From positions 1 to 64,000 of the IMG/VR virus record IMGVR_UViG_3300044911_002208: 64,000 nucleotides of DNA; one strand, given 5' to 3'. Below the pieces are notes generated by a model. The model did not search any database and had not been told where the DNA came from. It was given only the letters and a program-made list of their open reading frames with translations. Numbering within the stretch: the first letter of the stretch is position 1; each line of letters opens with the position of its first letter. The DNA comes from a virus. The translations under genes were made by a program, and so were the position numbers. Below, one piece after another: positions 3,324 to 21,882 of the stretch.

Positions 3324-3341
3324 AATTTATATTATAAGTGC

Positions 3342-4879: not shown

Positions 4880-4908
4880 TGATATACTTTTAGTCTTTTT
4901 TATGTTAT
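4879..4908 (+). promoter_or_regulatory. Candidate sigma70 promoter for the epimerase gene
   Basis: TTGATA at 4879-4884 and TGTTAT at 4903-4908, spaced 18 bases, precede the plus-strand epimerase gene; a good AGGAG site lies at 4922-4926. The -10 is only a 4/6 match. Confidence 0.35.
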
Positions 4909-4916
4909 TATTTATT
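4909..4916 (-). promoter_or_regulatory. Late-type promoter AATAAATA
   Basis: On the minus strand this reads AATAAATA, a one-base variant of the T4-type TATAAATA, about 30 bases before the structural gene starting at 4879. Confidence 0.45.
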
Positions 4917-4930
4917 ATAATAGGAGAATT

Positions 4931-5725
4931 ATGATTATACTTACAGGATCATCTGGTTTTATTGGTCAACATTTTGTAAATAAAATCAGTACAAATGAAG
5001 ACATACTATTAATAGATCAAGAAGATTCTTGGAGATTATTAAGAGAATTTGAAGATTGGGACAAAGTAAGTCTTATCATACATCAAGGTGCAATATCATC
5101 GACCACAGAAAAAAATCTACAAAAATTATGGCATTATAATGTAGCATTTTCTTGTGCCTTATTTAATAAAGCAATCGAATATAAAATTCCAGTAAAATAT
5201 GCATCTTCAGCATCAGTATACGGAAACACTAATGGGCAGATTAATCCATTAAATCAATACGCAATTTCAAAACTTCAAATTGATTATTGTGTATTAGATA
5301 ACTTAGACCAATTCCAATTGATTCAGGGATTCCGTTATTTTAATGTGTACGGTGATGGAGAAGATCATAAAGGAAATCAAGCAAGTCCAGTTAGTAAATT
5401 CACCAAAGAAATTAGAGAAACTGGAGAACTTAATTTATTTGAAGGATCAGACAAATTTCTTCGTGACTTTGTTTGTGTTGATGATATTGTTGATATTGTT
5501 TTAAACAATGATGCACCAAGTGGAATTTATGACATTGGCACAGGAAATCCAATTTCATTCCAAGAGGTTGCAGAATTAGTTGCAAAAAAAGAGAATGGTA
5601 AAATTAATACCATTCCCTTCCCAGATCATTTAGTTGGTAAATATCAAACTTATACTTGTGCAGATATGAGTTGGTTAAAAAATTATAACTTCAAGTCTGT
5701 TGCTGAGTATTTACAAGTAAATTAA
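4931..5725 (+). CDS. NAD-dependent sugar epimerase, ADP-heptose 6-epimerase (HldD)-like
   Basis: 264 residues, extended short-chain dehydrogenase fold. Rossmann motif GSSGFIGQHF (residues 5-14), then HQGAISSTTEKN, SSASVYGN, the catalytic YAISK pair and RYFNVYGDGEDHKGN. HQGAISSTTE and YFNVYG are the marks of ADP-D-glycero-D-manno-heptose 6-epimerase. Strong AGGAG site 5 bases upstream. It is convergent with the oxygenase gene at 5691 (35-base overlap) and lies beside the heptose kinase and nucleotidyltransferase, which supports the heptose assignment. Another NDP-sugar epimerase activity cannot be excluded. Confidence 0.8.
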   Translation: MIILTGSSGFIGQHFVNKISTNEDILLIDQEDSWRLLREFEDWDKVSLIIHQGAISSTTEKNLQKLWHYNVAFSCALFNKAIEYKIPVKYASSASVYGNTNGQINPLNQYAISKLQIDYCVLDNLDQFQLIQGFRYFNVYGDGEDHKGNQASPVSKFTKEIRETGELNLFEGSDKFLRDFVCVDDIVDIVLNNDAPSGIYDIGTGNPISFQEVAELVAKKENGKINTIPFPDHLVGKYQTYTCADMSWLKNYNFKSVAEYLQVN

Positions 5726-6305
5726 AACTAATAGTCCTTCTTTCTAAAAGACTTTTTTGTTTAGTAACCCAATGCATAAGGTTACTGGGAAACAAAAAAG
5801 TTTTTCCTATTTTCTGCTCAGGTCTATGATGCTCATTATTCCAAATAAATTCCAAATTATGTAAATCATACCAATCCGAATCTTCTGGTAAATCCAATAT
5901 CGTTATTCCAGATATATGTCCAGCATGATCATGTGGTGGTGTATAGTCATTTTGAAAATATCTATTAACCCAAACATCAACAAATAACTCTGAAAAATGT
6001 GAATTGTTAAAATATATATCCGCACTATTCACACCATGAACTTTCATATATTCTTCAGAAGCATTAGCAATAAAAGATGAAAATCCAATAGTATCTAATT
6101 GATCACTTGTCAAATATACAATCTCAAATCCTCTTGATAATAGATCAGGAAATCCTTGAACTTTACTATGCTTAGAGGAACATAGTTCTTTTGTTTCTTG
6201 ATCCATATTATCAATGAAATTATTAAAATTATCCACCACATTTTGTGGGCAAAAACATTCAAAAATGATAGGACCAAAAGGTTTAGTTATATTATATTCT
6301 AACAT
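5691..6305 (-). CDS. Putative 2-oxoglutarate/Fe(II)-dependent oxygenase
   Basis: 204 residues. The C-terminal half has YTPPHDHAGHISGITILD, then FPSNLMHWVTKQ and RRTISFNL, consistent with a two-His-one-acid iron site and an Arg that binds 2-oxoglutarate, as in 2OG-Fe(II)_5-type phage oxygenases. It is the last gene of the run transcribed from near 13.6 kb, overlapping its upstream neighbour by 7 bases. Substrate unknown; phage examples are often next to fibre genes. Confidence 0.7.
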   Translation of the reverse strand: MLEYNITKPFGPIIFECFCPQNVVDNFNNFIDNMDQETKELCSSKHSKVQGFPDLLSRGFEIVYLTSDQLDTIGFSSFIANASEEYMKVHGVNSADIYFNNSHFSELFVDVWVNRYFQNDYTPPHDHAGHISGITILDLPEDSDWYDLHNLEFIWNNEHHRPEQKIGKTFLFPSNLMHWVTKQKSLLERRTISFNLLVNTQQQT

Positions 6306-6883
6306 GAAAATTCTTTGTAGTTAATAAAAGCAGTGGCAATATATTTTTCTCCAGATATTGGAGTGTTTCCACTATGAGGAAACAAATAGTTACAAGGAAA
6401 TATTAAAACTTTACCTTTTTCTGGTTTAACTTTTATATCATAATGTGGAAATTCTGTCTCCCCACCTTCCACCACATCATTTAAATATATTATTACCGCA
6501 AACGTTCTAGTTACATTACCACCAGGACCTTGATCAATATGACAATCAAAATACCCATTATTTTTTTCATAGACTCTTACAGAATAGTCTTTAATGCAAA
6601 CATAATCCATTGTTACTGAAGGTCTTATGTTACTGTAATTAGTATATACATCACAAATAATTTGTGTCATTAAATGTGATATTTCGTGATCTGGTGGTGG
6701 ATTAGATTGTTTTGCCTTTTTAACATCCAATCTAACATAATTTTGATACCCAGACTCTCCATATCCAGACACAGATCCATCTATATGAAGATGTTCATTT
6801 TCTAAAAACCAGGAACGTATTTTATCCGCACATTCATCAGATATAAAATTAGGATATTCTACAATCAAGTCTTGCAGTTCCAT
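6299..6883 (-). CDS. Prolyl 4-hydroxylase-type 2OG-Fe(II) oxygenase
   Basis: 194 residues. Iron ligands HID (in YFDCHIDQGP) and the distal His in YLFPHSGN, with the 2-oxoglutarate-binding basic residue in GEKYIATAFINY. EGGETEFPHY between them is typical of the P4H subgroup, which hydroxylates proline in protein chains. TAATG overlap with the cupin gene upstream. A protein target among the phage fibre proteins is possible but inferred. Confidence 0.85.
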   Translation of the reverse strand: MELQDLIVEYPNFISDECADKIRSWFLENEHLHIDGSVSGYGESGYQNYVRLDVKKAKQSNPPPDHEISHLMTQIICDVYTNYSNIRPSVTMDYVCIKDYSVRVYEKNNGYFDCHIDQGPGGNVTRTFAVIIYLNDVVEGGETEFPHYDIKVKPEKGKVLIFPCNYLFPHSGNTPISGEKYIATAFINYKEFSC

Positions 6884-7236
6884 TAGTCCCCCTTAATAAT
6901 TCTAATACTATCTTCTTCAAAATGTTGAGTAGAAAATTCAAATAATTCAGTATCTTCTAGGGCATACATTCTATGTCTAAGTCCAACTGGGACGTGAAAT
7001 TTTTCTCCTTTTTTAAGTGTTCTTTTTTGTGCTAGATTAATATCATCATCATACCCATAATGAAGTATTAACAATCCAGATTGAACATAAAATGTTTCGT
7101 CTTTTATCTTATGATAATGCCAAGAACATTTTCTACCCTTTACAAAATAAAGAAGTTTACCACAATATTGTTCATTATTAACGATCCACTTTTCAAATCC
7201 CCATCCTTTAGGAACAAATTCAATTGAAGAAATCAT
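6883..7236 (-). CDS. Cupin-fold protein (sugar isomerase-like)
   Basis: 117 residues forming one cupin barrel: SWHYHKIKDETFYVQSG carries the His/His/Glu metal site and VPVGLRHRM the distal His. WGFEKWIVNNEQYCG at the N-terminus is common in cupins of the mannose-6-phosphate isomerase/sugar-binding type. It overlaps the HAD gene by 17 bases inside the heptose block, so a role in sugar phosphate handling is likely, but the reaction is not determined. Confidence 0.75.
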   Translation of the reverse strand: MISSIEFVPKGWGFEKWIVNNEQYCGKLLYFVKGRKCSWHYHKIKDETFYVQSGLLILHYGYDDDINLAQKRTLKKGEKFHVPVGLRHRMYALEDTELFEFSTQHFEEDSIRIIKGD

Positions 7237-7549
7237 TGTCTTTTATTGCTTTATCATCTATATAGTAGTCTGCTGATGGTTTACCCATTATCAATTCATG
7301 GTATTTACATCCCCATAATTCTAATTGCATTTTAGTTAAATTATAAAATTTATCCCTCGCCTTTTGAGCATCATCATTGTATCTACCCATTCCCCTAGCG
7401 GTAAAATATTTTATTGTATGCCCATCTTCATAAAGTTGATTAATTTTTTCAATTCGTTCTAAATGAGGCATACTTCCTTCATATGCACACACTTTACATG
7501 CTCCATTTTCACAAATTGTACCATCAATATCAATGCAATATATTGCCAT
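7220..7549 (-). CDS. HAD-family phosphatase-like protein
   Basis: 109 residues. Motif I is CIDIDGTIC near residue 5, Thr/Ser motif II is KYFTARGMG, and the C-terminal GKPSADYYIDDKA supplies the Lys and double Asp of motifs III and IV. This short HAD type is common in capsule and LPS clusters. Placed directly after the PfkB kinase (20-base overlap), it could remove the C7 phosphate in ADP-heptose synthesis (the GmhB step), although GmhB itself is longer. The role is inferred. Confidence 0.75.
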   Translation of the reverse strand: MAIYCIDIDGTICENGACKVCAYEGSMPHLERIEKINQLYEDGHTIKYFTARGMGRYNDDAQKARDKFYNLTKMQLELWGCKYHELIMGKPSADYYIDDKAIKDNDFFN

Positions 7550-8336
7550 TATTTAAACTCCTAATATCATCTTCTGATAATGTATATGTACCAAAATGTT
7601 GAACAGCAATTGCTGCTGCTTTATTTGCATATTTAATAGATTCAGAAAATCTAAACCTATCTTCTTTACATGTCAAGTAAGAGTGTACAAATGCTGCTAA
7701 GAAGGTATCACCAGCACCAACAACATCAAATACATTTACTTTTTCAGATGGATATGTATACCCCAAGTATTTAACTCCATCACTACCCATAGTAACAATT
7801 AAATGTACATCCTCTGGATAAGATATGAGGTTATTATATTCTCTCTGATTTATTTTAAAAATTACATTCTTTTCAGTAAATAAATCTCGTTTTTTAGTAT
7901 CAATAAAAACGGGACCATTAAAGTTTTGACAAATTACTTTAAGGTCATCAGTTGTAAGAAGACCTTTATCATAATCAGATACAACAACTGCATCATATGA
8001 AAAATGCAAAAAAGCACTCCGAACCTCAGAGGGTTTAATCGGAGATACTTTTACATCATTATCAATTCTTAGAAGTTGTTGTTTACTACCATTATGAACT
8101 ACTCTAGTTTTTTTAATAGATTCTTTATTTGTTATATGAACTACATTTATACCAAAAGACTCTAGATTATTTTTAACATTAGAAGACATTCCAGAATATA
8201 TTTCTGTGTGAGTATATTTAAGTATTGGTACTGGAGCTTCTGGACTGATGCGTTCTACATCACCATAAAGATATTCATCTTCACACTTCTCCCCTATTAA
8301 TAATACGTTCAATTGTGCCTGTAGTTGAGTATCCAT
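7530..8336 (-). CDS. PfkB sugar kinase, HldE kinase-domain-like
   Basis: 268 residues. RISPEAPVPIL near residue 29, TRVVHNGSKQQLLRIDND, and the PfkB signature DVVGAGDTFLAAF near residue 207 match the kinase half of the heptose enzyme HldE, which phosphorylates D-glycero-manno-heptose 7-phosphate at C1. The N-terminus is shorter than in HldE, and the first 56 bases overlap the nucleotidyltransferase gene. In many bacteria the two activities are one polypeptide; here they are separate overlapping genes in reverse order. Confidence 0.85.
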   Translation of the reverse strand: MDTQLQAQLNVLLIGEKCEDEYLYGDVERISPEAPVPILKYTHTEIYSGMSSNVKNNLESFGINVVHITNKESIKKTRVVHNGSKQQLLRIDNDVKVSPIKPSEVRSAFLHFSYDAVVVSDYDKGLLTTDDLKVICQNFNGPVFIDTKKRDLFTEKNVIFKINQREYNNLISYPEDVHLIVTMGSDGVKYLGYTYPSEKVNVFDVVGAGDTFLAAFVHSYLTCKEDRFRFSESIKYANKAAAIAVQHFGTYTLSEDDIRSLNNGNILH

Positions 8337-8700
8337 CTAATCTATTAAAAAATTTTAATTCCTTTGCGTGTTCAGATCCAATAACAGTTTTACCAATCCA
8401 ATCAGAACCTACAACCATTATATCAGGTTCTATACTTTTAACCAAATATTCCAATTCTTCATCGGTATTGAATAAAACAACATAATCAACAGATTTTAAA
8501 TTAATTAAAAATTCTGCCCTATCATTTTGACTATTGATTGGTCTTGATTCTCCTTTTTTTTCTTTGACTCTTTGATCAGTGTCAATGGCAACATATAAAA
8601 TATCACCTTTTGATTTTGCATAATTTAACATTTCAATATGCCCTTTATGCAAAAGATCAAATGTTCCGTTTACAAATACTTTAGTTATTTCTTTAGACAT
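8281..8700 (-). CDS. Nucleotidyltransferase, HldE C-domain-like
   Basis: 139 residues. FVNGTFDLLHKGHIEML is the HxGH cytidylyltransferase-type motif; VKEKKGESRPINSQNDRAEFL, VGSDWIGKTVIGSEHAK and YSTTGTIERI match the adenylyltransferase half of HldE, which makes ADP-heptose from heptose 1-phosphate. It overlaps the kinase gene by 56 bases and the next upstream oxygenase by 8. Glycerol-phosphate or other sugar-phosphate nucleotidyltransferase is the alternative, but the kinase neighbour favours heptose. Confidence 0.85.
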   Translation of the reverse strand: MSKEITKVFVNGTFDLLHKGHIEMLNYAKSKGDILYVAIDTDQRVKEKKGESRPINSQNDRAEFLINLKSVDYVVLFNTDEELEYLVKSIEPDIMVVGSDWIGKTVIGSEHAKELKFFNRLDGYSTTGTIERIINRGEV

Positions 8701-9172
8701 GATAATTAAAATTAATTACTACTCTATTGTATTCATCAGTACAAGTTGTACCAGTATGTTTTTGATTAGAATTAAAAACGATTAACCGATTGGCAATACT
8801 TTCAACTTCCGTTCCATCCTCAAATATCGTTTTTCCGTTATTTGTATTTAGATATAAAATAGCAGTTGTGCAATCTGGATGATCCGAATGAAAATCATGT
8901 TGAATTATATTGTCAGTTTTTATAAGTAAATTAGCTTTAGATCTTACAACAGATGATGCACCTAAAATTTCAAATATGGGAAATATCAATCCAAAATATT
9001 TTGTTTTTGGTTCATAATCAGTATAAAAAAGATGAATAAATTGAGAATATCCATCATACGGTGATACTATACCTTTTTGAAAAAACCAAGGAAACATTGG
9101 TCCAAGTATAGTATCTTCTAATTCATTGAAGTATTGTTTTTCTAAAAAATTATCTATTATTTTTATTGTCAT
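8693..9172 (-). CDS. 2OG-Fe(II) oxygenase
   Basis: 159 residues. QHDFHSDHPDCTTAILYLN carries the HxD iron ligands, KTIFEDGTEVES the linking turn, NQKHTG the distal His and NRVVINFNY the 2-oxoglutarate-binding Arg. It lies between the halogenase (23-base overlap) and the nucleotidyltransferase. The substrate is unknown; being translated with the halogenase suggests a shared pathway. Confidence 0.8.
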   Translation of the reverse strand: MTIKIIDNFLEKQYFNELEDTILGPMFPWFFQKGIVSPYDGYSQFIHLFYTDYEPKTKYFGLIFPIFEILGASSVVRSKANLLIKTDNIIQHDFHSDHPDCTTAILYLNTNNGKTIFEDGTEVESIANRLIVFNSNQKHTGTTCTDEYNRVVINFNYHV

Positions 9173-10634
9173 TTATCATAGTTGAATAACCTTTAACATA
9201 ATTATAATGGAGCACAGAATTTTTATGCTTTTCTAGTTCATTTTTACGAAAATCTGAAATTATTCGTCTCGTTTGAATTTCGGACAATCCATTATTTTTA
9301 TATAAAATATTTTCTACATCCATTAATTGAAATAACCATACACTCCAATTTTCACCAGCAAACATAAAATCTCCATCATTAGGAACTTGATATGGATTAT
9401 GCTCAAGTTCAAATTCATAATATTTTTGAGTATCAGTTATTTGATGAGTTTCTTTAACCCACTCCCAGAATTTTCCACTCTTTTGAGATCTAGAATAATG
9501 CATATTTACAAAGTCTACAGCATTCTCAAAGAAACATTTCATCTTACAATTATACAAATTAATGTCTTGCATATTATAAGAAGATCCTTTAAGTGCTTCT
9601 CCCAATCCAATTACTCCAGCACAAATTAATGCTACACCAGTACTTTCTAATGGTTCAATAAATCCAGCAGATAATCCAATACATACAACATTATTTTCCC
9701 AAAAGTTATTATGATAATAAGGAGTCCAATCAATAACTTTTAGTGATTCACGTTCTACTCTATTATCCCAATAATTAACAAAATAATCTTTTGCTTCTTC
9801 TGGGTCTGTAATAGATCTATTAAAAACTAACCCAGATCCAATTCTGGTTTGAACAGGAATATTCCAAATCCATCCATGCTCAACTGCATCACATATTACA
9901 TAAGGTCTCATTTCATTTTTAATATCATTATATGGAATATGCCCAGCAACCGCAGTATCACAAAACAACCTATCACGAAGATTTACAGTATCTGGTTTGG
10001 ATCCAATTAATCTCTTAAATCCAGTACAATCAACAAATAAATCAGATTCTATTTCTTGTCCATCACTTAACAATAAGTACTGGACATTGCCAGTATTATC
10101 TCTAACAATATCAACAACCTCGGATTGAACAAAAGTTATTTTATCCATAATTTTATTTTGGATAAATTTAACTAATTTACCACAATCAATATGGTATGCA
10201 TATGCGGGTAGATTTGTTGGATCTATTTTATTCTCATCCACTGAAGGATGATATAATGCTGTAGCATTCAATTTAAAATCAAGATCTTTACATTGAGTCC
10301 AGATATTCAATAAGTTTGTATTAGCCCAATCATATGCTGGGAATGCAAATGGGTGCCAAATATCTTCCCCTTCTTTTTGCCAATTTGCAAATAAAATTCC
10401 AGATTTAAAAGTAGCATCTATTTGATTAAACCAGGATTCAATTGGAAATCCACATGCCTCCATAAATGGTTTAAAACTTAAAACAGTTGCTTCTCCAACA
10501 CCAACAGTTTGACCTTGTTCTTTATCAATTACAACTATCTCACAATATTTTCTAGTTCTGTTTAAGAGGAACGCAGCAGTCAACCAAGCAGAAGTTCCTC
10601 CCCCAACTATTACAATTCTACGAAGTGGTTTCAT
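9150..10634 (-). CDS. Flavin-dependent halogenase (tryptophan halogenase family)
   Basis: 494 residues. FAD motif GGGTSAWLTAAFLL near residue 10; ATFKSGILFANW places the catalytic lysine near residue 79; the halogenase signature GWIWNIP is near residue 255; IEPLESTG near residue 328 matches the Glu region that holds the hypohalite adduct. The family needs FADH2 from a separate reductase, not seen here. A cyanophage enzyme of this kind (VirX1, phage Syn10) has been reported to iodinate many substrates. ATGA overlap with the carbamoyltransferase gene upstream. Natural substrate unknown. Confidence 0.9.
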   Translation of the reverse strand: MKPLRRIVIVGGGTSAWLTAAFLLNRTRKYCEIVVIDKEQGQTVGVGEATVLSFKPFMEACGFPIESWFNQIDATFKSGILFANWQKEGEDIWHPFAFPAYDWANTNLLNIWTQCKDLDFKLNATALYHPSVDENKIDPTNLPAYAYHIDCGKLVKFIQNKIMDKITFVQSEVVDIVRDNTGNVQYLLLSDGQEIESDLFVDCTGFKRLIGSKPDTVNLRDRLFCDTAVAGHIPYNDIKNEMRPYVICDAVEHGWIWNIPVQTRIGSGLVFNRSITDPEEAKDYFVNYWDNRVERESLKVIDWTPYYHNNFWENNVVCIGLSAGFIEPLESTGVALICAGVIGLGEALKGSSYNMQDINLYNCKMKCFFENAVDFVNMHYSRSQKSGKFWEWVKETHQITDTQKYYEFELEHNPYQVPNDGDFMFAGENWSVWLFQLMDVENILYKNNGLSEIQTRRIISDFRKNELEKHKNSVLHYNYVKGYSTMINDNKNNR

Positions 10635-12433
10635 TCATCCTCCTGATTTTTAACGTAAATTAAAGTATTGTATTCTGGCAAATACAGATATTCAATTAAA
10701 CTATTAGCAAGAGTTCTTACAGCATCATCAAGAGTTTCAACCAGAGGTTCTCCACCAAGATTAAATGATGTATTAAAAATAATAGGACAACCAGTTTTTT
10801 CGTAGAAGGTATTGATTAAATTATAGTAATGCAAATTCTGTTCTTGAGTAACAGTTTGAATTCTACAAGTTCCATCAACATGAATAATTGCAGGAATTTT
10901 TTCTTCTATACCTTCTTTACAATTTACAGCATACATCATGAAGGGAGAATCTTCCATACCACGAAGATCAAACCAATCATGAACATGCTCATGAAGAATA
11001 GATCCAGCAAAAGGTCTAAAGTATTCTCTTCTCTTAATACGATTTACATGATCTTTACCATTTGGATCTCTTGGATCATAAAGAATGGATCTATTACCAA
11101 GTGCTCTAGGACCAGCTTCCGACCTTCCCTGGAATACTGCGACAATATTTTTATCCATGATTAACTCAATAACATCTTCATAAGATGCAGATGTTACTTC
11201 CGTCGCATTATATTTTTCCGAGACTAAATTAATCTCTTGATTACTGTAATTATAACTAGGTCCAGTATAAAGATTTTGAATTTTTTCTTTTACATTATTA
11301 TCTTCATTGACTTTATGATGCCATATTAATGCAGCACCAATTGCAGTTCCAGCATCATTACTTACTGGTTCAACATAAAGATTAATGTTTTCATCTTTAA
11401 GTTGCTCAAGATACCAATAGTTTGCAACACAATTAAGACCATATCCACCAGAAATAACGACATTATTATTTCCAGTCATTTCAACTGCTTTACGAATTAA
11501 ATCAAGAACCATTTGTTGTGATTGTGTTTGAATAGCATATGCCATATCACGACGATTCTCAAGAAGTGTTAGATCATCAAATTCTTCTGGTGTTCTAAGA
11601 AATTCATATCTACCTTCATTAACTAATGCACCGTTAGGATAGGTTGGAATAATAACATTTCGATCAGAAGTCTTCCAACTACCACCATTACCATCAGTAT
11701 AAATTGCAGGAATATTATCATTTGGTTTTCCATAAGGGAATAATCCCATAGTTTTACCTGCTTCAATGGGAGGCCAACCACAATATTGTGTTGCTGCTTC
11801 ATATGCTTTTGTAATACCAGCACTATCATCAAGAACTAATTCATGTGTTCCGTCTTCACCTTCAGTATCACTAGGCATTTCGGGTATTCTTACAGATGCC
11901 CAAGGACCTCTTCCAGATTGATGCTTATAAAGAGTTTTGAATAACGCTGGATATTCACAACTAAAAATAGATTCAAGTTCCCAGGTCATTTCTTGATTTC
12001 GCCCAATTTGCATTGGAATAAAAGTTCCAGCACCATCAACAACTAATGATACTGCACTTTCAAATCCAGAACGATAAAATGCACATGCAGCATGAAGTTT
12101 ATGATGATTTCTACTTAAATCTATAACTTGAGGATGATTATAATTATCTTGATTTCTATCAATTAATCCAAGTTTTCTTGCAAGACCAGTATAGATATCA
12201 TCACCAGAAAAATCAATTCTTCCAGCGTCACTTAAAGGTTGTGTATGTGCGATTACCAAATAATCAAGTTTATCAGTATATTCAAGAATTTTAACCATTG
12301 ACGCCAATGGTCCACCATCATATTTTGCCCTAGATAAACGCTCTTCCTCAATAGATAAAACTAATTCACCATCTTTAAGAAGACAAACCCCAGAGTTATG
12401 CCCTCTAGCAATAGCAGCAATCCATTGTGTCAT
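10631..12433 (-). CDS. Carbamoyltransferase, NodU/CmcH/TobZ family (copy 2)
   Basis: 600 residues. N-terminal ATP/carbamoyl-phosphate domain with AIARGHNSGVCLL, SRNHHKLHAACAFYRSGFESAV and VVDGAGT; ISGGYGLNCVAN near residue 330; C-terminal SEAGPRALGNRSIL, REYFRPFAG, TCRIQTV and IFNTSFNLGGEPLVETLDDA. Same family as the 528-residue copy at 1709-3295 but clearly divergent, so not a recent duplicate. It sits 10 bases after the GT9 gene and overlaps the halogenase gene, which suggests carbamoylation of the product of this block. Confidence 0.92.
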   Translation of the reverse strand: MTQWIAAIARGHNSGVCLLKDGELVLSIEEERLSRAKYDGGPLASMVKILEYTDKLDYLVIAHTQPLSDAGRIDFSGDDIYTGLARKLGLIDRNQDNYNHPQVIDLSRNHHKLHAACAFYRSGFESAVSLVVDGAGTFIPMQIGRNQEMTWELESIFSCEYPALFKTLYKHQSGRGPWASVRIPEMPSDTEGEDGTHELVLDDSAGITKAYEAATQYCGWPPIEAGKTMGLFPYGKPNDNIPAIYTDGNGGSWKTSDRNVIIPTYPNGALVNEGRYEFLRTPEEFDDLTLLENRRDMAYAIQTQSQQMVLDLIRKAVEMTGNNNVVISGGYGLNCVANYWYLEQLKDENINLYVEPVSNDAGTAIGAALIWHHKVNEDNNVKEKIQNLYTGPSYNYSNQEINLVSEKYNATEVTSASYEDVIELIMDKNIVAVFQGRSEAGPRALGNRSILYDPRDPNGKDHVNRIKRREYFRPFAGSILHEHVHDWFDLRGMEDSPFMMYAVNCKEGIEEKIPAIIHVDGTCRIQTVTQEQNLHYYNLINTFYEKTGCPIIFNTSFNLGGEPLVETLDDAVRTLANSLIEYLYLPEYNTLIYVKNQEDE

Positions 12434-12443
12434 TTATTATACC

Positions 12444-13580
12444 TCACTTAAGTTTTTTTAAAATGTTATTAATTTCTTTATCTAATGATTCTTTTCCACC
12501 AAATCCTTTATTTTCTTTTGGCATCAATACTGGAGTAGAGGGTGCCTTTATTTCTGGTGCCATAGGAAGAGCATTTTGAGTAGTTGGACAACAAGAACTT
12601 TGTGCTGCATTAGATGGTTTCCAATTTCCAGTATAAGCAACAGATTTACCTAAACTTTTTTTAACAGAAGAAATAACTTCTTGTATTTTTTGCTTATTCA
12701 ACTCCATTGCTTCATCATTATATCGATCAATTTCTTCATCAATAGAGATACGAATAGGGCTATATTTTCTCCTATCTAATCCAGCATCAATAATATTAAA
12801 ATCCTTTGAATTTGGATATGAAATATTTTCTGGATATGTTGATCCCAAAACAACAGTAGCAGTTTTACCAAATGCTTTAGCAATATGTTGCCCCATACTA
12901 TCACAACCCAGGAAGTGATCTGAAGCATTGATAATACTTGCCCACATTCTCATATCTGTAATTTGTGGTCTTGCGACACGATATTTAGATTTTTCTTCAT
13001 TTTCTTCAAGAGGAAAATGAATCTCACTCATAATAATAATTGCATAATCTTTTTTAAGTTCGTTAATAATTTCTACAATATTATTGAGAGAAAAACTACG
13101 AGATGTTGGATCTGCAATAAAATCTGCCCCGACTTGTTCAACAGATCTACCAAAAGGTTGTACAACTAAAACTTTATCCTTACCAGTTCCTGCTTTAATT
13201 TCTTCCACAGAATTATAACCAGCAAGAAGTTCCATTTTATTTAAATGAATTGTTGGATCACCAATTTCTCTCGGTTCATCCAATTCATTAATGATAACAT
13301 CAAATGCTTGAGCAAGATTACACTTCTGATTGTAATAATGCCAAGATCGATATGGCTCTGGAGTTATACAATCTCTATGTTTAATTTCTTTTTCGAATAG
13401 ACCTTTATGCCAATTATCAAAAACATATTTGTGCAGAATTGGATGTCCTTTATAAAAATCAGTTCCCCCTTCACAAACTATAACAAAATCGTCATGAGTT
13501 TCTGCGTATTTTTCAAATGCAGGGATGGAGCAAATCACTCTGCCAGCTCCACCATTTATAAAAAATGCCTTGGATCTCAT
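12444..13580 (-). CDS. GT9-like (heptosyltransferase-type) glycosyltransferase
   Basis: 378 residues. The N-terminal GGAGRVICSIPAFEKY and the C-terminal GCDSMGQHIAKAFGKTATVVLGSTYPEN are features of GT9, the ADP-heptose:LPS heptosyltransferase family. Residues about 310-370 form a Pro/Ser/Cys-rich extension (SSCCPTTQNALPMAPE) not typical of the family. It is the first gene of the block reading to about 5.7 kb, with an extended -10 promoter 30 bases upstream. Together with the ADP-heptose genes this points to heptose transfer. Acceptor unknown. Confidence 0.75.
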   Translation of the reverse strand: MRSKAFFINGGAGRVICSIPAFEKYAETHDDFVIVCEGGTDFYKGHPILHKYVFDNWHKGLFEKEIKHRDCITPEPYRSWHYYNQKCNLAQAFDVIINELDEPREIGDPTIHLNKMELLAGYNSVEEIKAGTGKDKVLVVQPFGRSVEQVGADFIADPTSRSFSLNNIVEIINELKKDYAIIIMSEIHFPLEENEEKSKYRVARPQITDMRMWASIINASDHFLGCDSMGQHIAKAFGKTATVVLGSTYPENISYPNSKDFNIIDAGLDRRKYSPIRISIDEEIDRYNDEAMELNKQKIQEVISSVKKSLGKSVAYTGNWKPSNAAQSSCCPTTQNALPMAPEIKAPSTPVLMPKENKGFGGKESLDKEINNILKKLK

Positions 13581-13608
13581 TTACAGTCAACCTCAGTGTA
13601 ATTAATAT

Positions 13609-13624
13609 TGCTATAATTATAGCA
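13609..13624 (-). promoter_or_regulatory. Extended -10 promoter inside a 16-bp palindrome
   Basis: The perfect palindrome TGCTATAATTATAGCA contains the extended -10 TGCTATAAT on both strands. On the minus strand it precedes the GT9 gene by about 30 bases, with GAGGT as ribosome site. Being a palindrome, it could also bind a dimeric regulator. Confidence 0.5.
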
Positions 13625-13646
13625 CGATTCAATTTTATTTAGAAGA

Positions 13647-14333
13647 TTAAAAAAACATTATTTGAGTTAAACGATCACATGTTTTAAACATATGTGGTTC
13701 CATCACTGCACCATGTATTTGATTTGCGTCATACAAGATACATCTATTATATTTCATATCACATGTATATTCTAATTTTGGTGAATTTGTAGTTCCATCA
13801 GAATTTGGAATACTTACAGAATAAAAACTAGTACCACCTTCACACTCATTTTCTTTATTCAAAAATACTAATGCTGCCCATTTATTATATGGACCATCAA
13901 CATGACATATAGTTTTCCAATCTCTACCAGAATTAACAATTTCCTTATTACTAGTAACATTAACAACAAATCTCATATATTGCCATTTATTGTAATGATG
14001 TTCTTTATCAAATTCAATATGCCATTTTGGATATAAACATAATTGTTCAAAAACTGGACAAAGATTAATATTTAATTGATTCATTATTTCAAATTCTTCA
14101 TCCCATACCCGTCTACCAATAGCACCAGCAAGACGTTCTTTATCAGTATAAGTTTTTGATTTTATTGCACAATCCCGTATCTCATCTGGATTTTTATAAA
14201 AATCATCGATTATAAAAACCATTTTTTCAACTGTATCTGAACTATATTTTACAACACCATCAGATATAGATTCCCAAGTAATATCTTTTACTTTTTCTAT
14301 TTTTACTTTTAATTCACTATTAACTTCAAACAT
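13647..14333 (-). CDS. 2OG-Fe(II) oxygenase-like protein
   Basis: 228 residues. IIDDFYKNPDEIRDCAIKS near residue 40 is typical of DUF6445-type oxygenases; the iron site is WKTICHVDGPYNKWAALVFLN (HxD) plus the distal His in YDANQIHGAV, and CEGGTSFYS lies between. It overlaps the preceding oxygenase-like gene by one base and follows the fibre chaperone, so it is probably expressed late with fibre genes. Confidence 0.7.
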   Translation of the reverse strand: MFEVNSELKVKIEKVKDITWESISDGVVKYSSDTVEKMVFIIDDFYKNPDEIRDCAIKSKTYTDKERLAGAIGRRVWDEEFEIMNQLNINLCPVFEQLCLYPKWHIEFDKEHHYNKWQYMRFVVNVTSNKEIVNSGRDWKTICHVDGPYNKWAALVFLNKENECEGGTSFYSVSIPNSDGTTNSPKLEYTCDMKYNRCILYDANQIHGAVMEPHMFKTCDRLTQIMFF

Positions 14334-14869
14334 TATAGTAATGGGATTGCACCAAAATTTTCTGTAGGTAGTATAATGCCATTATAATCTTCTTCTAAAA
14401 TAATGTCAAAACCTATCGTAATTCTCTTTCCTTTATAATTTGACTTATTAACTACACGATGTAAATATCCACCAGGACCAAAGTAAATATTTCCACATTC
14501 ATTTTCGATGGACCAATTCTCAAATTCAGTTACAGTATCTTGAGGTTCTATTGATATGTACCCATGCCAACTTGAAGTATGATTATGCCAAGGTAAAACT
14601 TCATTATAACTTTGATAGTTTAACCAAGACTGAATCCAAATCATTTGATCTGGAAGTTGTTCTCTTACAATATCCCTAACTTTGGAATAAACTCTATACA
14701 TATGCTTAGAAGGAGAAGACACCCCAAAGATATTATAGTAAATATAAGCTTTCGTTGTATCGAAAACTCCATATTTAACTAAATTATCTTGAGATGTCTT
14801 CAGTTCTTTTATTATTTCTATTTGATTTTCTTTAACATAATCAAAATTATATAATGTATATTCACTCAT
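14333..14869 (-). CDS. 2OG-Fe(II) oxygenase/cupin-like protein
   Basis: 178 residues. LPWHNHTSSWHGYISI carries a HxH or Hx-type metal site, GNIYFGPGGYLHRV the distal His and RITIGFDI the 2-oxoglutarate-type basic residue, arranged as in phage putative 2OG oxygenases. It lies between the fibre chaperone-like gene (10-base gap) and another oxygenase, in the same late unit. Substrate unknown; a fibre protein is an attractive target but not shown. Confidence 0.6.
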   Translation of the reverse strand: MSEYTLYNFDYVKENQIEIIKELKTSQDNLVKYGVFDTTKAYIYYNIFGVSSPSKHMYRVYSKVRDIVREQLPDQMIWIQSWLNYQSYNEVLPWHNHTSSWHGYISIEPQDTVTEFENWSIENECGNIYFGPGGYLHRVVNKSNYKGKRITIGFDIILEEDYNGIILPTENFGAIPLL

Positions 14870-14879: not shown

Positions 14880-15575
14880 TCAGGAATCTCTTCCAGCAAT
14901 ATTAGCAGCTTTTGGTTGTAATGGGAACATATAGTAAGCAATATTTGGATCAACCCCCGCATTTTCCATTACAGTAGGAAGATCTCTTAATTTTTGACGA
15001 TATTCCATCCATTCATCTTTCAATGATTGTGGCATATCTTCAGCAATTTGACCATCACTAAGTCCAAGCATCATATCTCTATGATTTCTAATATCACCCC
15101 ATGTTAAGTTTTCAGGTTTGCCATGAAGTTTTTCAGAAACTGTATATGTAGTTAATTCTACATTACCATCTGTAACTTTAACATTCCACTTATCAAAAAC
15201 GTCCTCTGGCTTAAGAGGTGTTGGATAAGAATATCTATCATATCCTTCTATTTCAGGTGATCCAGGATGGAATTTTTCTCCAGTATAATCTTCCTGAAAT
15301 TCATTTACAATTGGTCCTCTTAAATGACATACAAGAGGATTTTCTGTACAATCAACTTCATACCATTCAACAACATCAGCAGGAATTGGTCTACCATCAG
15401 CAATGTCTTCTTCAGTTAATGGACCATATTTTTCAGTACCATCTTCTCCAATTTGGAGATAAATTTTATCTGGTCCATGATAAGTATATTTACGTGTTTT
15501 TCCTTCACTAAAAGAATGATCTACTAGATAATCATTGAATTCTGGAAATTCAAATTCTACTGAAATTTGTGCCAT
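14880..15575 (-). CDS. Tail fibre assembly chaperone-like protein
   Basis: 231 residues. The C-terminal WMEYRQKLRDLPTVMENAGVD is the hallmark of tail fibre assembly and tail assembly chaperones (DUF4376 type), preceded by a mixed domain with YLQIGEDGTEKYGPLTEEDI. These proteins help fold or attach distal fibre parts. It follows three fibre-adhesin-like genes, and a perfect TATAAATA box lies 40 bases upstream, so late expression is expected. Confidence 0.7.
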   Translation of the reverse strand: MAQISVEFEFPEFNDYLVDHSFSEGKTRKYTYHGPDKIYLQIGEDGTEKYGPLTEEDIADGRPIPADVVEWYEVDCTENPLVCHLRGPIVNEFQEDYTGEKFHPGSPEIEGYDRYSYPTPLKPEDVFDKWNVKVTDGNVELTTYTVSEKLHGKPENLTWGDIRNHRDMMLGLSDGQIAEDMPQSLKDEWMEYRQKLRDLPTVMENAGVDPNIAYYMFPLQPKAANIAGRDS

Positions 15576-15624: not shown

Positions 15625-16416
15625 TTATAAGAAGCTAATTTTAACAAGTCCAGGACCACCAGTTCCACCTTGACCACAACAAGATCCACCACCACAAACG
15701 GTTCCCATTGCACCTTGTCCACCATGACCATAAGGAACAGTCCAACACGCACAACGCATCCAACATTCATGAACATTTTGTTGAACTTGTGTACCAATAA
15801 ATGGAGCTGGAGTTGGTGTAGCACCCTTACAATGGCAATGACATTGAGATCCATGAATAAAGAATGCCCCTCTATGATTACCCAGTCCAAAATCACCACC
15901 CCATGCACCAGGAGCCATACAGCAGGCACCTTGATCTGAGAAGCATCCTTCATTCCAACTACCATTTGCACACCCAGTAATTCCACCCAATGCACAGAAG
16001 TTGCTCAATCCACATCCAGTCATATACGATGAGCATCCACAACAACCCAAACATTCGTTAGACAAACAAGGATACACACCAGCAGCACAGACTGTATATG
16101 TCCATCCAGGACATACATTAATCATTTTTGAATTATAATATCCTCCTTGTGCTCCCGCAAAGTGTTGACATCTACTAGTTGTACATGCCCCGTGTCCATT
16201 TCCACCAGCACCCCAGAGTTCAATAAATGCCTTAAATACACCATTCGGAACAGTCCAAAGGCAACAGCAACCAGTAGAACAAAAACAAGGTTGCCCATAA
16301 AACCACTTAACTTCCCATGTTGCAAAGGCATTTCCACCAACAGCAGTTGATGGAATAGTACCATCAACTATGCCATCAGAGGAATTTATTTTTTTGTAAC
16401 TTGCATAAGATGCCAT
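15625..16416 (-). CDS. Cysteine/glycine-rich fibre adhesin, tandem copy 1
   Basis: 263 residues with about 29 Cys (11%) and many Gly. After a start shared by all three copies (MASYASYKKI), the pattern is CCCLWTVPNGV, IELWGAGGNGHGAC, GAQGGYYNSKM, then Cys-rich loops (CLGCCGCSSY, CHCHCKG), HECWMRCACWTVPYGHGGQGA and GQGGTGGPGLVKI. IELWGAGG and the Gly-rich end recall the glycine-rich domains of phage adhesins. It lies between the giant fibre genes and the fibre chaperone. Receptor binding is inferred. Confidence 0.7.
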   Translation of the reverse strand: MASYASYKKINSSDGIVDGTIPSTAVGGNAFATWEVKWFYGQPCFCSTGCCCLWTVPNGVFKAFIELWGAGGNGHGACTTSRCQHFAGAQGGYYNSKMINVCPGWTYTVCAAGVYPCLSNECLGCCGCSSYMTGCGLSNFCALGGITGCANGSWNEGCFSDQGACCMAPGAWGGDFGLGNHRGAFFIHGSQCHCHCKGATPTPAPFIGTQVQQNVHECWMRCACWTVPYGHGGQGAMGTVCGGGSCCGQGGTGGPGLVKISFL

Positions 16417-16452
16417 TTGATTCTACTCCTTAGAAATATGTAATTTTAACAA
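16385..16452. repeat. 68-bp perfect direct repeat, copy A
   Basis: Identical over 68 bases to 17196-17263. It spans the end of one Cys-rich gene, the 13-base gap and the start of the next, and so links the tandem genes. It offers a site for homologous loss or gain of copies. Confidence 0.85.
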
Positions 16453-17227
16453 GACCAGGACCACCCATACCACCTTGCCCACAGCAACTGCTTCCACAAT
16501 AGGAAGTCATAGCCCCCTGTCCACCATGACCATAAGGAACAGTCCAACAACCACAACGCATCCAACAGTAGTTAATTGACTGTTGAACAGTTGTTCCAAT
16601 TAAAGGAGCAGAAGTTGGTTGAGTTTGTTGATGATGACAATGGCAGAATCCAACACCAAACCACCATTCAACACCACCAAAAGCACCAGCATGGTTCATG
16701 TATCCAAAGTCACCACCATTGTTTTCACCTTGCAAACAACAATCCCAGACAGAGTTACAAGGAGTTGCCCAATCAGTGTTTGCACATCCAGGAGATCCAC
16801 CAACAGCACAAAAATTGGATAAATTAAATCCAGTTGTATAAGAAGCACATCCAATACATCCACTACATTCAAATCTGCAGCAGTTACCATTTCCTGCAGC
16901 ACAAACAGTATATTGACATCCAGAGGCAGAAGTAATCATTTTAGAGTTATATGCTCCACCACCAGCACCTCTATAGTGGTGACATCTACTACAAGAACAT
17001 GCACCATGTCCAGACCCACCAGCTCCCCAAAGCTCAATAAAAAGTTTAGTTACACCAGAAGGAACAGTCCAAAGACAGCAACATCCCTGCGAACAAGCTC
17101 CAGGATCACCATAAAACCATTTAACACCAAAAGTCTTTCTAGCAGTAGAATCAAATTTTGTTTCATCTAGAGTTCCAGCAACAAAAGATGATCCGTTTAT
17201 TTTTTTGTAACTTGCATAAGATGCCAT
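16430..17227 (-). CDS. Cysteine/glycine-rich fibre adhesin, tandem copy 2
   Basis: 265 residues, about 27 Cys. Same architecture as its neighbours: CCCLWTVPSGVTK, IELWGAGGSGHGACSCSRC, NCCRFECSGCIGC, NYCWMRCGCWTVPYGHGGQGA and a Gly-rich C-terminus. The middle loops (CNSVWDCCLQG and VGFCHCHH) differ most from copies 1 and 3, as expected if they face the receptor. It starts 13 bases after copy 3 ends, with a shared ribosome site region. Confidence 0.7.
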   Translation of the reverse strand: MASYASYKKINGSSFVAGTLDETKFDSTARKTFGVKWFYGDPGACSQGCCCLWTVPSGVTKLFIELWGAGGSGHGACSCSRCHHYRGAGGGAYNSKMITSASGCQYTVCAAGNGNCCRFECSGCIGCASYTTGFNLSNFCAVGGSPGCANTDWATPCNSVWDCCLQGENNGGDFGYMNHAGAFGGVEWWFGVGFCHCHHQQTQPTSAPLIGTTVQQSINYCWMRCGCWTVPYGHGGQGAMTSYCGSSCCGQGGMGGPGLVKITYF

Positions 17228-17263
17228 TTGATTCTACTCCTTAGAAATATGTAATTTTAACAA
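17196..17263. repeat. 68-bp perfect direct repeat, copy B
   Basis: Second copy of the 68-base repeat at 16385-16452, placed identically relative to the next pair of Cys-rich genes. Confidence 0.85.
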
Positions 17264-18023
17264 CACCAGGGCCACCAGTTCCTCCCTGTCCACAGCAACC
17301 ACCACAATATGTGGTCATAGCATTTTGTCCACCACTACCATAAGGAACGTTCCAGCAACCACAACGAATCCAACATTCTGTTAATTCTCCAGTAACGTTA
17401 GCTCCACCTAAGAATGGGGCACCAGAAGCACAGAATATGTGTCTATAGCAGTGACAGTTCCAAGCACCAGTAAATGCACCTCTATGATTACCCATTCCAA
17501 AATCACCACCCCATGCACCAGGAGCCATGCAACATCTACCTTGATCGGAAAAACATGGGACGTTCCAGTTAGAATCGGCACATCCAGCACATCCACCAAT
17601 TGCACAGAAGTTACTTAATCCACATCCAGTAATATACGATGAGCAACCTTCGCATCCATTACATTCAATACTATTACATGGATAAACACCACCAGCACAT
17701 ATAGTATAGGTCCACCCACTAGATACCGAAATTGTTTTTATATTATAATACCCTCCCTGTGCTCCAGCATAGTGCTGACAGCGACCATTAGAACAAGCAC
17801 CAGCACCATTTCCACCAGAACCCCAAAGTTCAAAAGTAACTCGTCTTACGCCACTTGGAACTGTCCATAAGCAGCAACATCCAGGGCTACAAACACCCAA
17901 ACATCCACGAATCCACTGGACTGTATAATTTTTAAAAGCTGTAGATTCTAATTTAGAATCTGGAATGGAAGTAGAGAGTACTTGATCTCCAACTACTTTT
18001 TTATAGCTTGCGTATGATGCCAT
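17241..18023 (-). CDS. Cysteine/glycine-rich fibre adhesin, tandem copy 3
   Basis: 260 residues, about 28 Cys. First in transcription order, 21 bases downstream of a TATAAATA box. It shares CCCLWTVPSGV, FELWGSGGNGAGAC, CNSIECNGCEGCSSY, MAPGAWGGDFGMGNHRGAF and ECWIRCGCWNVPYGSGGQ with copies 1 and 2. Copies 1 and 3 are closer to each other in the MAPGAWGG region than to copy 2. Such Cys density would need oxidation after lysis, or metal binding, to be stable. Confidence 0.7.
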   Translation of the reverse strand: MASYASYKKVVGDQVLSTSIPDSKLESTAFKNYTVQWIRGCLGVCSPGCCCLWTVPSGVRRVTFELWGSGGNGAGACSNGRCQHYAGAQGGYYNIKTISVSSGWTYTICAGGVYPCNSIECNGCEGCSSYITGCGLSNFCAIGGCAGCADSNWNVPCFSDQGRCCMAPGAWGGDFGMGNHRGAFTGAWNCHCYRHIFCASGAPFLGGANVTGELTECWIRCGCWNVPYGSGGQNAMTTYCGGCCGQGGTGGPGVVKITYF

Positions 18024-18087: not shown

Positions 18088-21000
18088 TTAGACGGTGAAG
18101 ATTCTCCATCCTTGTGTATTATCAAAGAATACCAATTCAAACGCAGCACCTTCTGTTGAGATAGTCATGTTTTCAGCAAGGCCACCGATTGGTTTTCCAT
18201 TTCTACCAATTGTTAAGTTATTTGTATCAAAGGTATTACCAACGTCAAATACTCTGATCGCATCACCCTTAACTGGAGAAGCAGGAAGAGTTAATGTAAA
18301 TGCACCACCACTGGTATTACAGAAGTAGGTTCTCCAAATAGATGCGTTAGTGTTTGAAGTTATATCAACAGTTGCCCATCTACCAGCAGGAATCCATTGA
18401 GTTCCATCATAATATTCTGGAGTTTTAAGATCAGTGTTGTAACGGAATTGACCTTCAATTAAGTTGCCAACACCAGGTCTTTCAGCAGTAGTTCCTGTAG
18501 GAGGAACCATAGCCTCACTACCCATCTTATCTCTGGTAAGATATCCACGAACTGCATACTCAGTAGGACAAGCAGTATTGGAATTACCACTCATTGTCTC
18601 ATCAGATGAGAATTCATTAATTGCTTCACCAATCTGACCACCAAGAGAACCGAGTCTCAATTCTGTAAGACCAGACAGGTTGAATGCAGAAGCATCAAGA
18701 GTTGCAGCACCAGTTAACTGGTTAACCGAGAAGAGATCACCTACACGGAAGTTACCACCTTGGTCAGTAGATACATAGAATACTTTACCTGGACCAAATG
18801 TATTTGTTTCATTACCCTGCTGAACATTTGATTCATTGACGTTAGGATAATTTGTTTCAGCTTTGTTTCCAGTACCAACAGATAAGAAGTCGTGACCAGT
18901 TAAACGAGCATTAGAGAACTTAGTTCTAATGTCTACGAATGAACCACCAGAAGCAGTACCAACACCAGACAGGAAAGTAGATCTTGTATCGGGAGTAGCA
19001 CCACCTTTTTCAGGAGAAATTGTAATGGTAACTCTATTGTTATAAGTTACTGAAGATAATCCACTAGAACCACGGTACTGAGTATACGATGAAGTAAATC
19101 CAGTTACATTATTAATAATGTAATATCTTACTTCTCCACCAGTTCTATCACTACCAATTCCAGTTGTAGTAAATCCAATAGCATCACCAACTAATGGTAA
19201 ATTATTACCATTAACTTCATCAAGTTCAATAATAACACCCTTTTGTCCAGATACTGAACCAGTAGCAGTAGCGATTCTAAGAGCACCAGTAGTACCAGCA
19301 CCAATAAATGATACCCATTCACCATCAACAAAAGAAGTAGTACCAATTCCAGCAGATACACTACCGTAACCAGGCCAATACTTGAAGTAAATTCTATCCG
19401 CACTGGTTTGATCATTAATGAAGGTTGCTCTTGCACCAGAGGTTTCACCAATCATTGTCATACCGACGCCGATAGTTCCACTTACAGTTCCAACAACGGT
19501 ATCTGCTCTATCACCAAAGACTCTACCAGTTCTTGGAGTTTCTGATGTAGAGAATCCAGAAGAGACAACACCATAATCACCATAAGAGTTGTTACCAGCG
19601 ACAGAACGAATTCTAGATCCACCACCAGAATAGTAACCCCATCTACAATAATAAGTAAAGCAAGATACAATTTCTGCACCAGCATCTCTATCAAGAATGA
19701 ATCCAGCACCATCACTCAGAACATTGGTATATGCATCGAATACCATTGTCTTGGCACCTTCATTATGCACTCCTCCATCAATGAATACACCGACGCCAGC
19801 ACCACCATAACCATTAGGATCTGGATCACCAAATGAAGTACAATCCTTAACGTAAGGTGATTTATTTAAAATTGGTGAACTTGGATTGAATGCAAAGTAA
19901 ACACCACAAGCAGTTGTTCCAACACCAGTTCTAACTGTACTTGCTTCTAATTCATAAGGACGGTTAACGTCATAATTAAATCCAACAAGACCAGATACAT
20001 TCAGACCTTGAATTGTTGTTGCATCAGACAATCTAAACATTGTCTGGCGATTATTTGGAGTAGTACCATCAGTTGATAAACCAGCAGCAGGACGAATCTT
20101 AGACGCTCTAAGAGTAGATCCAACGATGCTTGTAAATGCAGGAACAGTAATTGGAAGTTGCTCAGCAAATTCAGATGCAGATAACTTAACAACTGCAGGT
20201 GAAAGGTTAATTACGTGACCACCACTTACATAAGTGTGATAAATTGTAGATAATCCAGCATTAACTTTAATAGTATTATTATCTACAATTTCACTTACTG
20301 TAAAATAAGATTCAACCACATTTCTTGGGAACACTGTGGTATCAAATCCAACAAATGCATTACCACCACTTACATAAATGTGGTTGATTGTAGAAACACC
20401 AACGTTTACTGCAAATGATGTTGAACTATTAACAGAAGTTACCGTGAAATTGGGTCCTTGAGCTCTTGTACCATCTGGGAATATTGTAGTTGTAATTCCA
20501 GATCCACCAGGACAAGTAAATTCTAAGTCTTTGAGTCTAACTACTGTACCAGGAGAAATTCCTGTTGCTGCAGCCCCAACTGTTACAGTACCAATACCAG
20601 AAGTAGCATCATATGTAAATCCAGTAACGTTGTAACTTCTACCACCACTTAAACATTCAAATTCAATATCCTCAAGTCTAATAGTAATATTTGGATATAA
20701 AATTCCGTGTGAAGGAGCCGTAATTGTTGATATACCAGTTAGAGGATCATATACAAAGTTTGTAATAGATGTTACGGCACTAGCATTATCACAGGCATAC
20801 TTCAGAGTTCTGAACGCCATATCAGGTGTACTGCCATTATAAGTATCAGAACCAAGTTCTGGGTCAACATAGTAAATACGAGTAGAATCACCAATGGTCA
20901 TCCATTGTGGAACACCCGATGTACTTACACCAAGAGACTTATAAGGAACTGTAGAAATTCCAAGTCTGGCTGGGGCAGAAGAATCTCTAATTAAAATATC

Positions 21001-21882
21001 ACCTTTTGTGGTTAGTAGGGCATTGGAATCTCCAATTGCTAAAGCACCCCAAATAGTAGAATCTGTTCCAGGAACAATTCCTTGGAATGAAGTTGAACCT
21101 ATACCAACATATGCAGATGAAGAATATTCTACAACATCATTTGCAAAATATTGAGTAATTGATGAATATGTTCCAGCGTATCTTAATCCAGTATTATATA
21201 AATCCCAAGCAGTTACTGCAACACCAACAACAGTAGATCCGATTCCAATGGTAGATCCAATTGCAGGATTAACATACTGTGCAGTAGTTGCGTTAAGTCT
21301 ATATGTATTTCCACCAAGTCTTACTAAATCTCCTTTATAATAAATTGAATTTCCTTGATAGGTAGTAATTCCAGCAGCATTGATACCATCAGCAAGAACA
21401 TTCCATTTTGTTCCCAACTCAACAGGAGGTACAACACCAGAAGTTGTAGTAGTAATAGCTACATAACTAATACCATTAAATATTACAACATCTCCAGTTT
21501 GATAAACCGTTCCTGGATCATAGGTTCCTTCACCATTAAATCCAGAAACATAAAGAACACTATTAGTACTCCCAATACCAACAGCAGTAGAAATTCCTAC
21601 GGTAACTCTACGCTGTGTATTACCATCAAGAACTACATCGTTAATTTTATAAAAAGTCCCTGGAGTATAAGTACCAACATTTCGTACTCCTTCAGTATGT
21701 AAAGACCAATTTGATGCATCTACAGAATACCATACTTGTTCTGAAGAAGAAGAAGTATGGTTTGTAGTACAAACATAAGTATTTGCACCAAATTTTACAA
21801 TGTCGTCAATAACATAAGCAGTACTGGGTGCCCACTCGCCTCTCCAGTTGAATTTTAGTCTCCCTAATCTAAAATCAGCCAT
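18088..21882 (-). CDS. Large tail fibre protein
   Basis: 1264 residues. The N-terminus has three or four repeats of a small carbohydrate-binding-type module (WAPSTAYVIDDIVKFGANTYVCT; YDPGTVYQTGDVVIFNGISYVA; YSSITQYFANDVVEYSSSAYVG). The middle (about 330-900) has long beta-helix-like sequence including GSDTYNGSTPDMAFRTLKYAC. The C-terminus (about 1130-1264) has STACPTEYAVRGYL-like trimerisation sequence and the TYFCNTSGGAFTLTLPASPVKGD domain also present in the 149-residue protein. Typical of the long cyanophage structural fibres. The exact fibre part is unknown. Confidence 0.8.
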   Translation of the reverse strand: MADFRLGRLKFNWRGEWAPSTAYVIDDIVKFGANTYVCTTNHTSSSSEQVWYSVDASNWSLHTEGVRNVGTYTPGTFYKINDVVLDGNTQRRVTVGISTAVGIGSTNSVLYVSGFNGEGTYDPGTVYQTGDVVIFNGISYVAITTTTSGVVPPVELGTKWNVLADGINAAGITTYQGNSIYYKGDLVRLGGNTYRLNATTAQYVNPAIGSTIGIGSTVVGVAVTAWDLYNTGLRYAGTYSSITQYFANDVVEYSSSAYVGIGSTSFQGIVPGTDSTIWGALAIGDSNALLTTKGDILIRDSSAPARLGISTVPYKSLGVSTSGVPQWMTIGDSTRIYYVDPELGSDTYNGSTPDMAFRTLKYACDNASAVTSITNFVYDPLTGISTITAPSHGILYPNITIRLEDIEFECLSGGRSYNVTGFTYDATSGIGTVTVGAAATGISPGTVVRLKDLEFTCPGGSGITTTIFPDGTRAQGPNFTVTSVNSSTSFAVNVGVSTINHIYVSGGNAFVGFDTTVFPRNVVESYFTVSEIVDNNTIKVNAGLSTIYHTYVSGGHVINLSPAVVKLSASEFAEQLPITVPAFTSIVGSTLRASKIRPAAGLSTDGTTPNNRQTMFRLSDATTIQGLNVSGLVGFNYDVNRPYELEASTVRTGVGTTACGVYFAFNPSSPILNKSPYVKDCTSFGDPDPNGYGGAGVGVFIDGGVHNEGAKTMVFDAYTNVLSDGAGFILDRDAGAEIVSCFTYYCRWGYYSGGGSRIRSVAGNNSYGDYGVVSSGFSTSETPRTGRVFGDRADTVVGTVSGTIGVGMTMIGETSGARATFINDQTSADRIYFKYWPGYGSVSAGIGTTSFVDGEWVSFIGAGTTGALRIATATGSVSGQKGVIIELDEVNGNNLPLVGDAIGFTTTGIGSDRTGGEVRYYIINNVTGFTSSYTQYRGSSGLSSVTYNNRVTITISPEKGGATPDTRSTFLSGVGTASGGSFVDIRTKFSNARLTGHDFLSVGTGNKAETNYPNVNESNVQQGNETNTFGPGKVFYVSTDQGGNFRVGDLFSVNQLTGAATLDASAFNLSGLTELRLGSLGGQIGEAINEFSSDETMSGNSNTACPTEYAVRGYLTRDKMGSEAMVPPTGTTAERPGVGNLIEGQFRYNTDLKTPEYYDGTQWIPAGRWATVDITSNTNASIWRTYFCNTSGGAFTLTLPASPVKGDAIRVFDVGNTFDTNNLTIGRNGKPIGGLAENMTISTEGAAFELVFFDNTQGWRIFTV

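Follow-up and report, generated by a model that had tools for sequence, protein, structure and literature searches.

In the window, that is, the whole 64,000-nucleotide stretch analysed (positions 1 to 64,000 of the IMG/VR virus record IMGVR_UViG_3300044911_002208), three tandem genes are highly likely to encode tail-fibre tips. The proteins, designated p1, p2 and p3, are very probably a cysteine-rich variant of a known adhesin-tip type. We propose that they are the distal receptor-binding adhesins of a T4-like marine cyanophage, carried on a long tail fibre. Each tip would begin with a short conserved N-terminal peptide, probably used for docking, and continue with a TNF-like beta-sandwich that leads to bundled glycine-rich loops at the distal end, the layout seen in gp24 of cyanophage Pam3. 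Part of the distal glycine lattice would be replaced in this lineage by a fixed scaffold of approximately 21 cysteines, joining neighbouring loops by thiol chemistry. Disulfides that form as the particle passes from the reducing cytoplasm to oxic seawater are the most likely form of this chemistry, and some thiols may be metal-bound or free. We lean, with modest confidence, towards this account as a whole (fibre tips with a cysteine scaffold that fastens the loops, mostly through disulfides formed outside the cell).

Results

The three genes were complete open reading frames (ORFs), arranged head to tail on the minus strand. The first after the long fibre gene, p1 (17241–18023), encoded 260 amino acids with 28 Cys, including the p1-specific Cys198. 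It was followed by p2 (16430–17227, 265 amino acids, 27 Cys) and p3 (15625–16416, 263 amino acids, 29 Cys). These values agree with an earlier note on this DNA, which had described three tandem proteins of about 260 residues with 27–29 Cys (about 10%). The pairwise identity among the proteins was 56–64%. Cysteine made up 10.7% of the pooled residues of p1–p3, while its share in the window's remaining long ORFs was 1.3%; at the window background, the probability of at least 27 Cys per 265 residues was about 8e-16. The proteins were also rich in glycine (18% over the whole protein) and in tryptophan (3.4% vs. 1.4%), while charged residues were scarce. Their glycine runs were short, for example GSGGNG and GQGGTGG, without a distal domain dominated by GGGGxGG. 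Cysteine enrichment as a genome-wide trait, or as a general trait of glycine-rich proteins, was rejected. The rest of the window was low in cysteine, and a protein encoded elsewhere in P-SSM2 that matched the Pfam family Gly_rich_2 (PF21722) contained 2 Cys in 485 residues, so the enrichment was specific to the tip locus rather than to the genome.

Immediately upstream of p1, a gene on the minus strand (18088–21882) encoded a long tail-fibre protein of 1264 amino acids, the probable carrier of the tips. It contained three CBM_5_12 carbohydrate-binding stretches (55.5 bits). The gene following p3 in homologous loci (14880–15575, minus strand, 231 amino acids) encoded a probable tail-fibre assembly chaperone. 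Its product matched Phage_tail_APC (PF16778) with 30.8 bits, above the cut-off of 26.6, and phrog_4912 (tail fiber assembly) with an E-value of 2.7e-7. The structure model of this product was confident (pLDDT 94.9), with a beta-rich N-terminal part and C-terminal helices. Among solved structures it matched none significantly, and Pam3 gp25 was not among the matches listed; the chaperone role is therefore assigned from sequence and gene position. Of the 81 loci, 79 had an assembly-type gene directly behind the last tip. At L047 and L048, an ORF of tip size occupied that place instead; in L047 its start coincided with that of the third tip in L055, a related locus. An assembly-type gene after the last tip is thus probably universal, L047 and L048 included. 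Two cysteines of the chaperone-type protein, C76 and C83, were invariant in 58–60 aligned homologues; the comparably situated gene of P-SSM2 (L003, 12837–13514) encoded no Cys.

A cyanobacterial host was marked by two photosynthetic reaction-centre genes of the psbD and psbA types (39480–40349 and 41012–41884) and a 2Fe-2S ferredoxin gene (44979–45269). The region downstream of the tips (1709–14869) contained four genes resembling 2OG-Fe(II) oxygenases, two of them clear (5691–6305 and 6299–6883) and two weak (8693–9172 and 14333–14869). It also contained two carbamoyltransferase genes (10631–12433 and 1709–3295), a tryptophan halogenase gene (9150–10634) and genes for a cupin, a PfkB kinase and a cytidylyltransferase. 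Halogenases and an oxygenase likewise follow the fibre tips in Syn9. One idea is that such downstream genes modify the Trp-rich tips or the host surface.

The AlphaFold2 monomer model of the tip, based on an alignment of 138 sequences, had a pLDDT of 84.2 and a pTM of 0.79. The predicted fold was a TNF-like beta-sandwich with distal glycine-rich loops. Its best solved match was the fibre of cyanophage Pam3 (7ypx_A; Z 17.0 over 191 residues, 3.0 Å, 20% identity), and Foldseek matched the model to the same tail fibre with an E-value of 4.6e-8. Further fold matches were the tail tip of Bxb1 (Z 12.3) and the glycine-rich domains of ALK/LTK (Z 8–10). A family-profile sequence search of solved structures returned nothing meaningful; only the fold search gave matches. 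The earlier note had called the proteins adhesin-like and had suggested structure prediction as a check. The resulting fibre-tip fold, the Pam3 match and the neighbouring gene of the tail-fibre-assembly type all support that description.

Pam3 gp24 is a homotrimeric virion protein, identified by mass spectrometry, whose TNF-like and glycine-rich domains are the proposed receptor-binding parts and whose folding requires the chaperone gp25 (PMC9608196). Its glycine-rich domain contains 39% Gly, with strands approximately 5 Å apart (PMC9608196). The window proteins resemble gp24 (PDB 7ypx, 7yfw) in combining a TNF-like and glycine-rich fold with an adjoining assembly-type gene. In contrast, the aligned region of Pam3 lacked Cys, and Pam3 has a single tip gene whereas the window has three. 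Since glycine amounted to 18% overall and occurred only in short stretches, the tips were considered a variant rather than a standard member of the Pam3 gp24 type. According to the Pam3 authors, gp38 of Salmonella phage S16 (PDB 6F45) also bears a distal lattice rich in glycine at the tip of the fibre, but has a different middle domain (PMC9608196); the likeness to S16 gp38 is taken from that description. We infer that the window proteins are located at the fibre tip of the virion as trimers, and that the chaperone-type gene product would aid their folding and trimerisation on the upstream-encoded fibre.

Gly_rich_2 matched 81 of the 138 family members at E ≤ 0.01 (best 5e-9). Tips of S-SSM7, Sf-FS3, S-CAM1, S-CAM3 and Mosig scored above the family cut-off of 24.3 bits; p2 reached 23.7 bits, and p1 and p3 gave no match. 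Syn9 gp38 and the Mosig tip were clear members. The Cys-poor tips sampled stayed below 2% Cys, and their Gly content had a median of 23%; p1 and p3, by contrast, went undetected by the family search. All three window proteins matched phrog_4205 over their full length (E 1e-52 to 1e-57). PHROG 4205 includes a tip of S-CAM3 and PHROG 35878 a tip of P-SSM2; neither carries a function, and the tip role is proposed here from fold and context. That homologues of the tips were annotated only as hypothetical, and that phrog_4205 lacks a function, would suit proteins acting outside virions, such as intracellular metal or thiol buffers. We consider such a role extremely unlikely given the fibre-tip fold, the place between fibre and assembly genes, the conserved N-terminal motif and the variable loops.

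To survey tip classes, loci were gathered by a motif in the upstream fibre and were thus not selected on cysteine content. Among 149 non-redundant downstream Gly-rich ORFs (Gly ≥ 12%), 48 contained <2% Cys and 95 at least 7%, with six in between. The median Gly content was 23% in the Cys-poor and 17% in the Cys-rich class. No Gly-rich ORF was found at 27 of the 132 loci with room downstream of the fibre motif. Tips of S-SSM7, Sf-FS3, S-CAM1, S-CAM3 and P-SSM2 were Cys-rich, whereas those of Pelagibacter phage Mosig and cyanophage Syn9 were Cys-poor. Cysteine richness therefore belongs to a tip lineage and not to all cyanophages. A strict link between Cys-rich tips and cyanobacterial hosts was ruled out by cyanophage Syn9, whose comparably placed gp38, following the fibre genes, has 0.8% Cys. 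Only 7 of 36 records, most of them fragments, contained psbA, which was therefore of no use in assigning hosts. Two loci (L183 and L184) encoded tip ORFs of approximately 570 amino acids whose cysteines (6%) clustered in some parts of the chain; these may be intermediates between the two classes. A cellular origin of the tips was rejected, since a genome collection gave two matches, both on short metagenome-bin contigs that are probably phage. In the open-access literature, to which the search was limited, no description of Cys-rich cyanophage tips was found, nor were virion proteomics for a phage with such a tip.

A scan of IMG/VR found relatives encoded on 258 stretches, and 79 loci were retained from these. 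Together with S-SSM7, Sf-FS3 and the window, these yielded 198 non-identical proteins. Sixteen cysteines were invariant in all 198 and five more were conserved at 92–99%. The patterns used for retrieval (GCCC[LN]WT and CWxRC[GA]CW) include Cys 49–51 and 217/221/223, so the conservation of these two clusters is partly by construction; the other cysteines are unaffected. Conserved Cys columns had a weighted entropy of 0.15 bit, compared with 0.81 in Gly columns and 1.40 overall, and cysteine is the most conserved feature of the tip proteins. Several conserved cysteines were closely set, in the motifs CxxCxxC (121-124-127), CCC (49–51), CHC (190–192) and CxxxCxC (217–223). Accessory cysteines that come and go were located at positions 34, 43, 45, 79, 117, 148 and 243.

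The sequence between the cysteines varied, mainly at residues of about 151–170, 181–200 and 211–220. In p1 (minus strand), the first of these stretches (17514–17573) falls in a predicted distal loop region, based on entropy and secondary structure. The second (17424–17483) was the most variable segment and yet contains the invariant Cys190 and Cys192 of CHC. The third (17364–17393) adjoins the conserved CWxRCxCW. The earlier note had described a constant frame with varying Cys loops, and had proposed comparing loop diversity among related phages. The W(T/N)VP(S/N/Y)G and Gly-rich segments of that frame were present in p1–p3 and the inter-Cys residues did vary among relatives, but the cysteines, accessory ones aside, were the least variable columns, the reverse of what the note had described.

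Exactly three tip copies were present in 78 of 81 loci. Mapped on the tree, gene position required five changes versus 92 in shuffles, which identifies p1, p2 and p3 as old paralogues in a fixed order. Their divergence matrices were correlated (r about 0.90), and a short N-terminal motif was conserved in all three. These observations, together with the single chaperone-type gene, would fit one heterotrimeric tip built from p1, p2 and p3 in place of three homotrimers, an arrangement compatible with any account of the cysteines. S-CAM1 and S-CAM3 likewise have three tip genes. However, P-SSM2 and related contigs have only two, any tight cluster is expected to be co-inherited, and Pam3 gp24 is a homotrimer (PMC9608196). 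We regard a heterotrimer as rather unlikely. A block of codons 161–180 was approximately 90% identical at the DNA level between p1 (about 17484–17543) and p3 (about 15874–15933), unlike p2. Gene conversion is possible for this single block, seen on a 20-codon table.

Regarding the state of the cysteines, a strict swap was observed between positions 104 and 134. Cysteine occurred at one or the other but never at both in the 198 sequences, and the partner position was occupied by an aromatic residue or His in most sequences. Independent pairs showed no change in the same direction and about 10 in opposite directions (p about 0.002). This indicates that thiol placement is constrained, one Cys usually being wanted there and never two; the Cys–aromatic exchange could reflect a sulfur–aromatic contact without a bond. 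Cysteine counts were even in 98 and odd in 100 of the 198 sequences. Counted by paralogue, the even/odd numbers were 36/31 for p1, 33/34 for p2 and 30/37 for p3, and 25/42 for the sum of the three; 87 of 137 branches with Cys changes carried one change only. With odd counts as frequent as even ones and accessory cysteines changing singly, a complete intrachain disulfide network is unsupported. Count parity as a measure of Cys pairing gave no signal, and the co-loss of Cys 221/244 and the exclusion of 142/164 had too few independent events to be of use.

Disulfides among the conserved cysteines, with extra cysteines free or intermolecular, or else metal sites, are possible under these counts. 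A strand spacing of about 5 Å, as in Pam3, is compatible with the Cα distances of disulfides. The cysteines probably fasten the distal loops together, and we tentatively name disulfide-based fastening, at just short of an even chance, as their main use. As an alternative, the conserved cysteines of the same tip, together with the CHC at 190–192, might bind zinc or an iron–sulfur centre that is loaded in the cytoplasm before lysis. Such binding works in a reducing cytoplasm, needs no parity of Cys number and would suit both the close-set motifs CxxCxxC, CCC, CHC and CxxxCxC and the replacement of Cys at 221 by His only. Against it, the Pfam search matched no metal-site family, and the cysteines are too many for one or two sites; we regard metal binding as unlikely. 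The odd counts and the single gains and losses of accessory cysteines would also agree with thiols that stay reduced and serve in direct receptor binding or redox sensing, for example by exchanging thiols with a protein on the host surface. Seawater would be expected to oxidise free thiols, however, and the 16 invariant cysteines argue for a structural role, making this a very unlikely use.

The earlier note had further suggested that a glutaredoxin and a peroxiredoxin could handle the tip thiols until lysis. Both genes were present in the window, encoding a glutaredoxin (3981–4223) and a peroxiredoxin of the redoxin family (44127–44666), but they did not go with the tips. All ten related phages tested had a glutaredoxin, and two of these have Cys-poor tips. 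The search for peroxiredoxin found none in P-SSM2, S-CAM1 or S-CAM3, whose tips are Cys-rich, but did find one in Mosig, whose tip is Cys-poor. The two genes thus lend no support to thiol handling for the tips. Neither thioredoxin nor VKOR was found in the 148.8-kb genome record, which is probably incomplete; their absence there counts against our preferred account.

Discussion

We favour fibre tips in which conserved cysteines tie together the distal loops. A rigid Cys scaffold of this kind would free the sequence between the cysteines to vary for receptor choice. A bolder version, in which a heterotrimeric tip with one subunit per ancient paralogue carries a dense thiol scaffold of mixed disulfide and metal type that stands in for the polyglycine lattice and would set only once the particle has left the cell, appears improbable.

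The analysis offers a likely function for a widespread marine cyanophage family listed as unknown, encoded on the 258 stretches from one IMG/VR scan. The choice of a Synechococcus or Prochlorococcus host probably lies with these tips. They raise the question of how approximately 27 cysteines are used in a virion protein that is synthesised in a reducing cytoplasm, and why they stand where its relatives have glycine.
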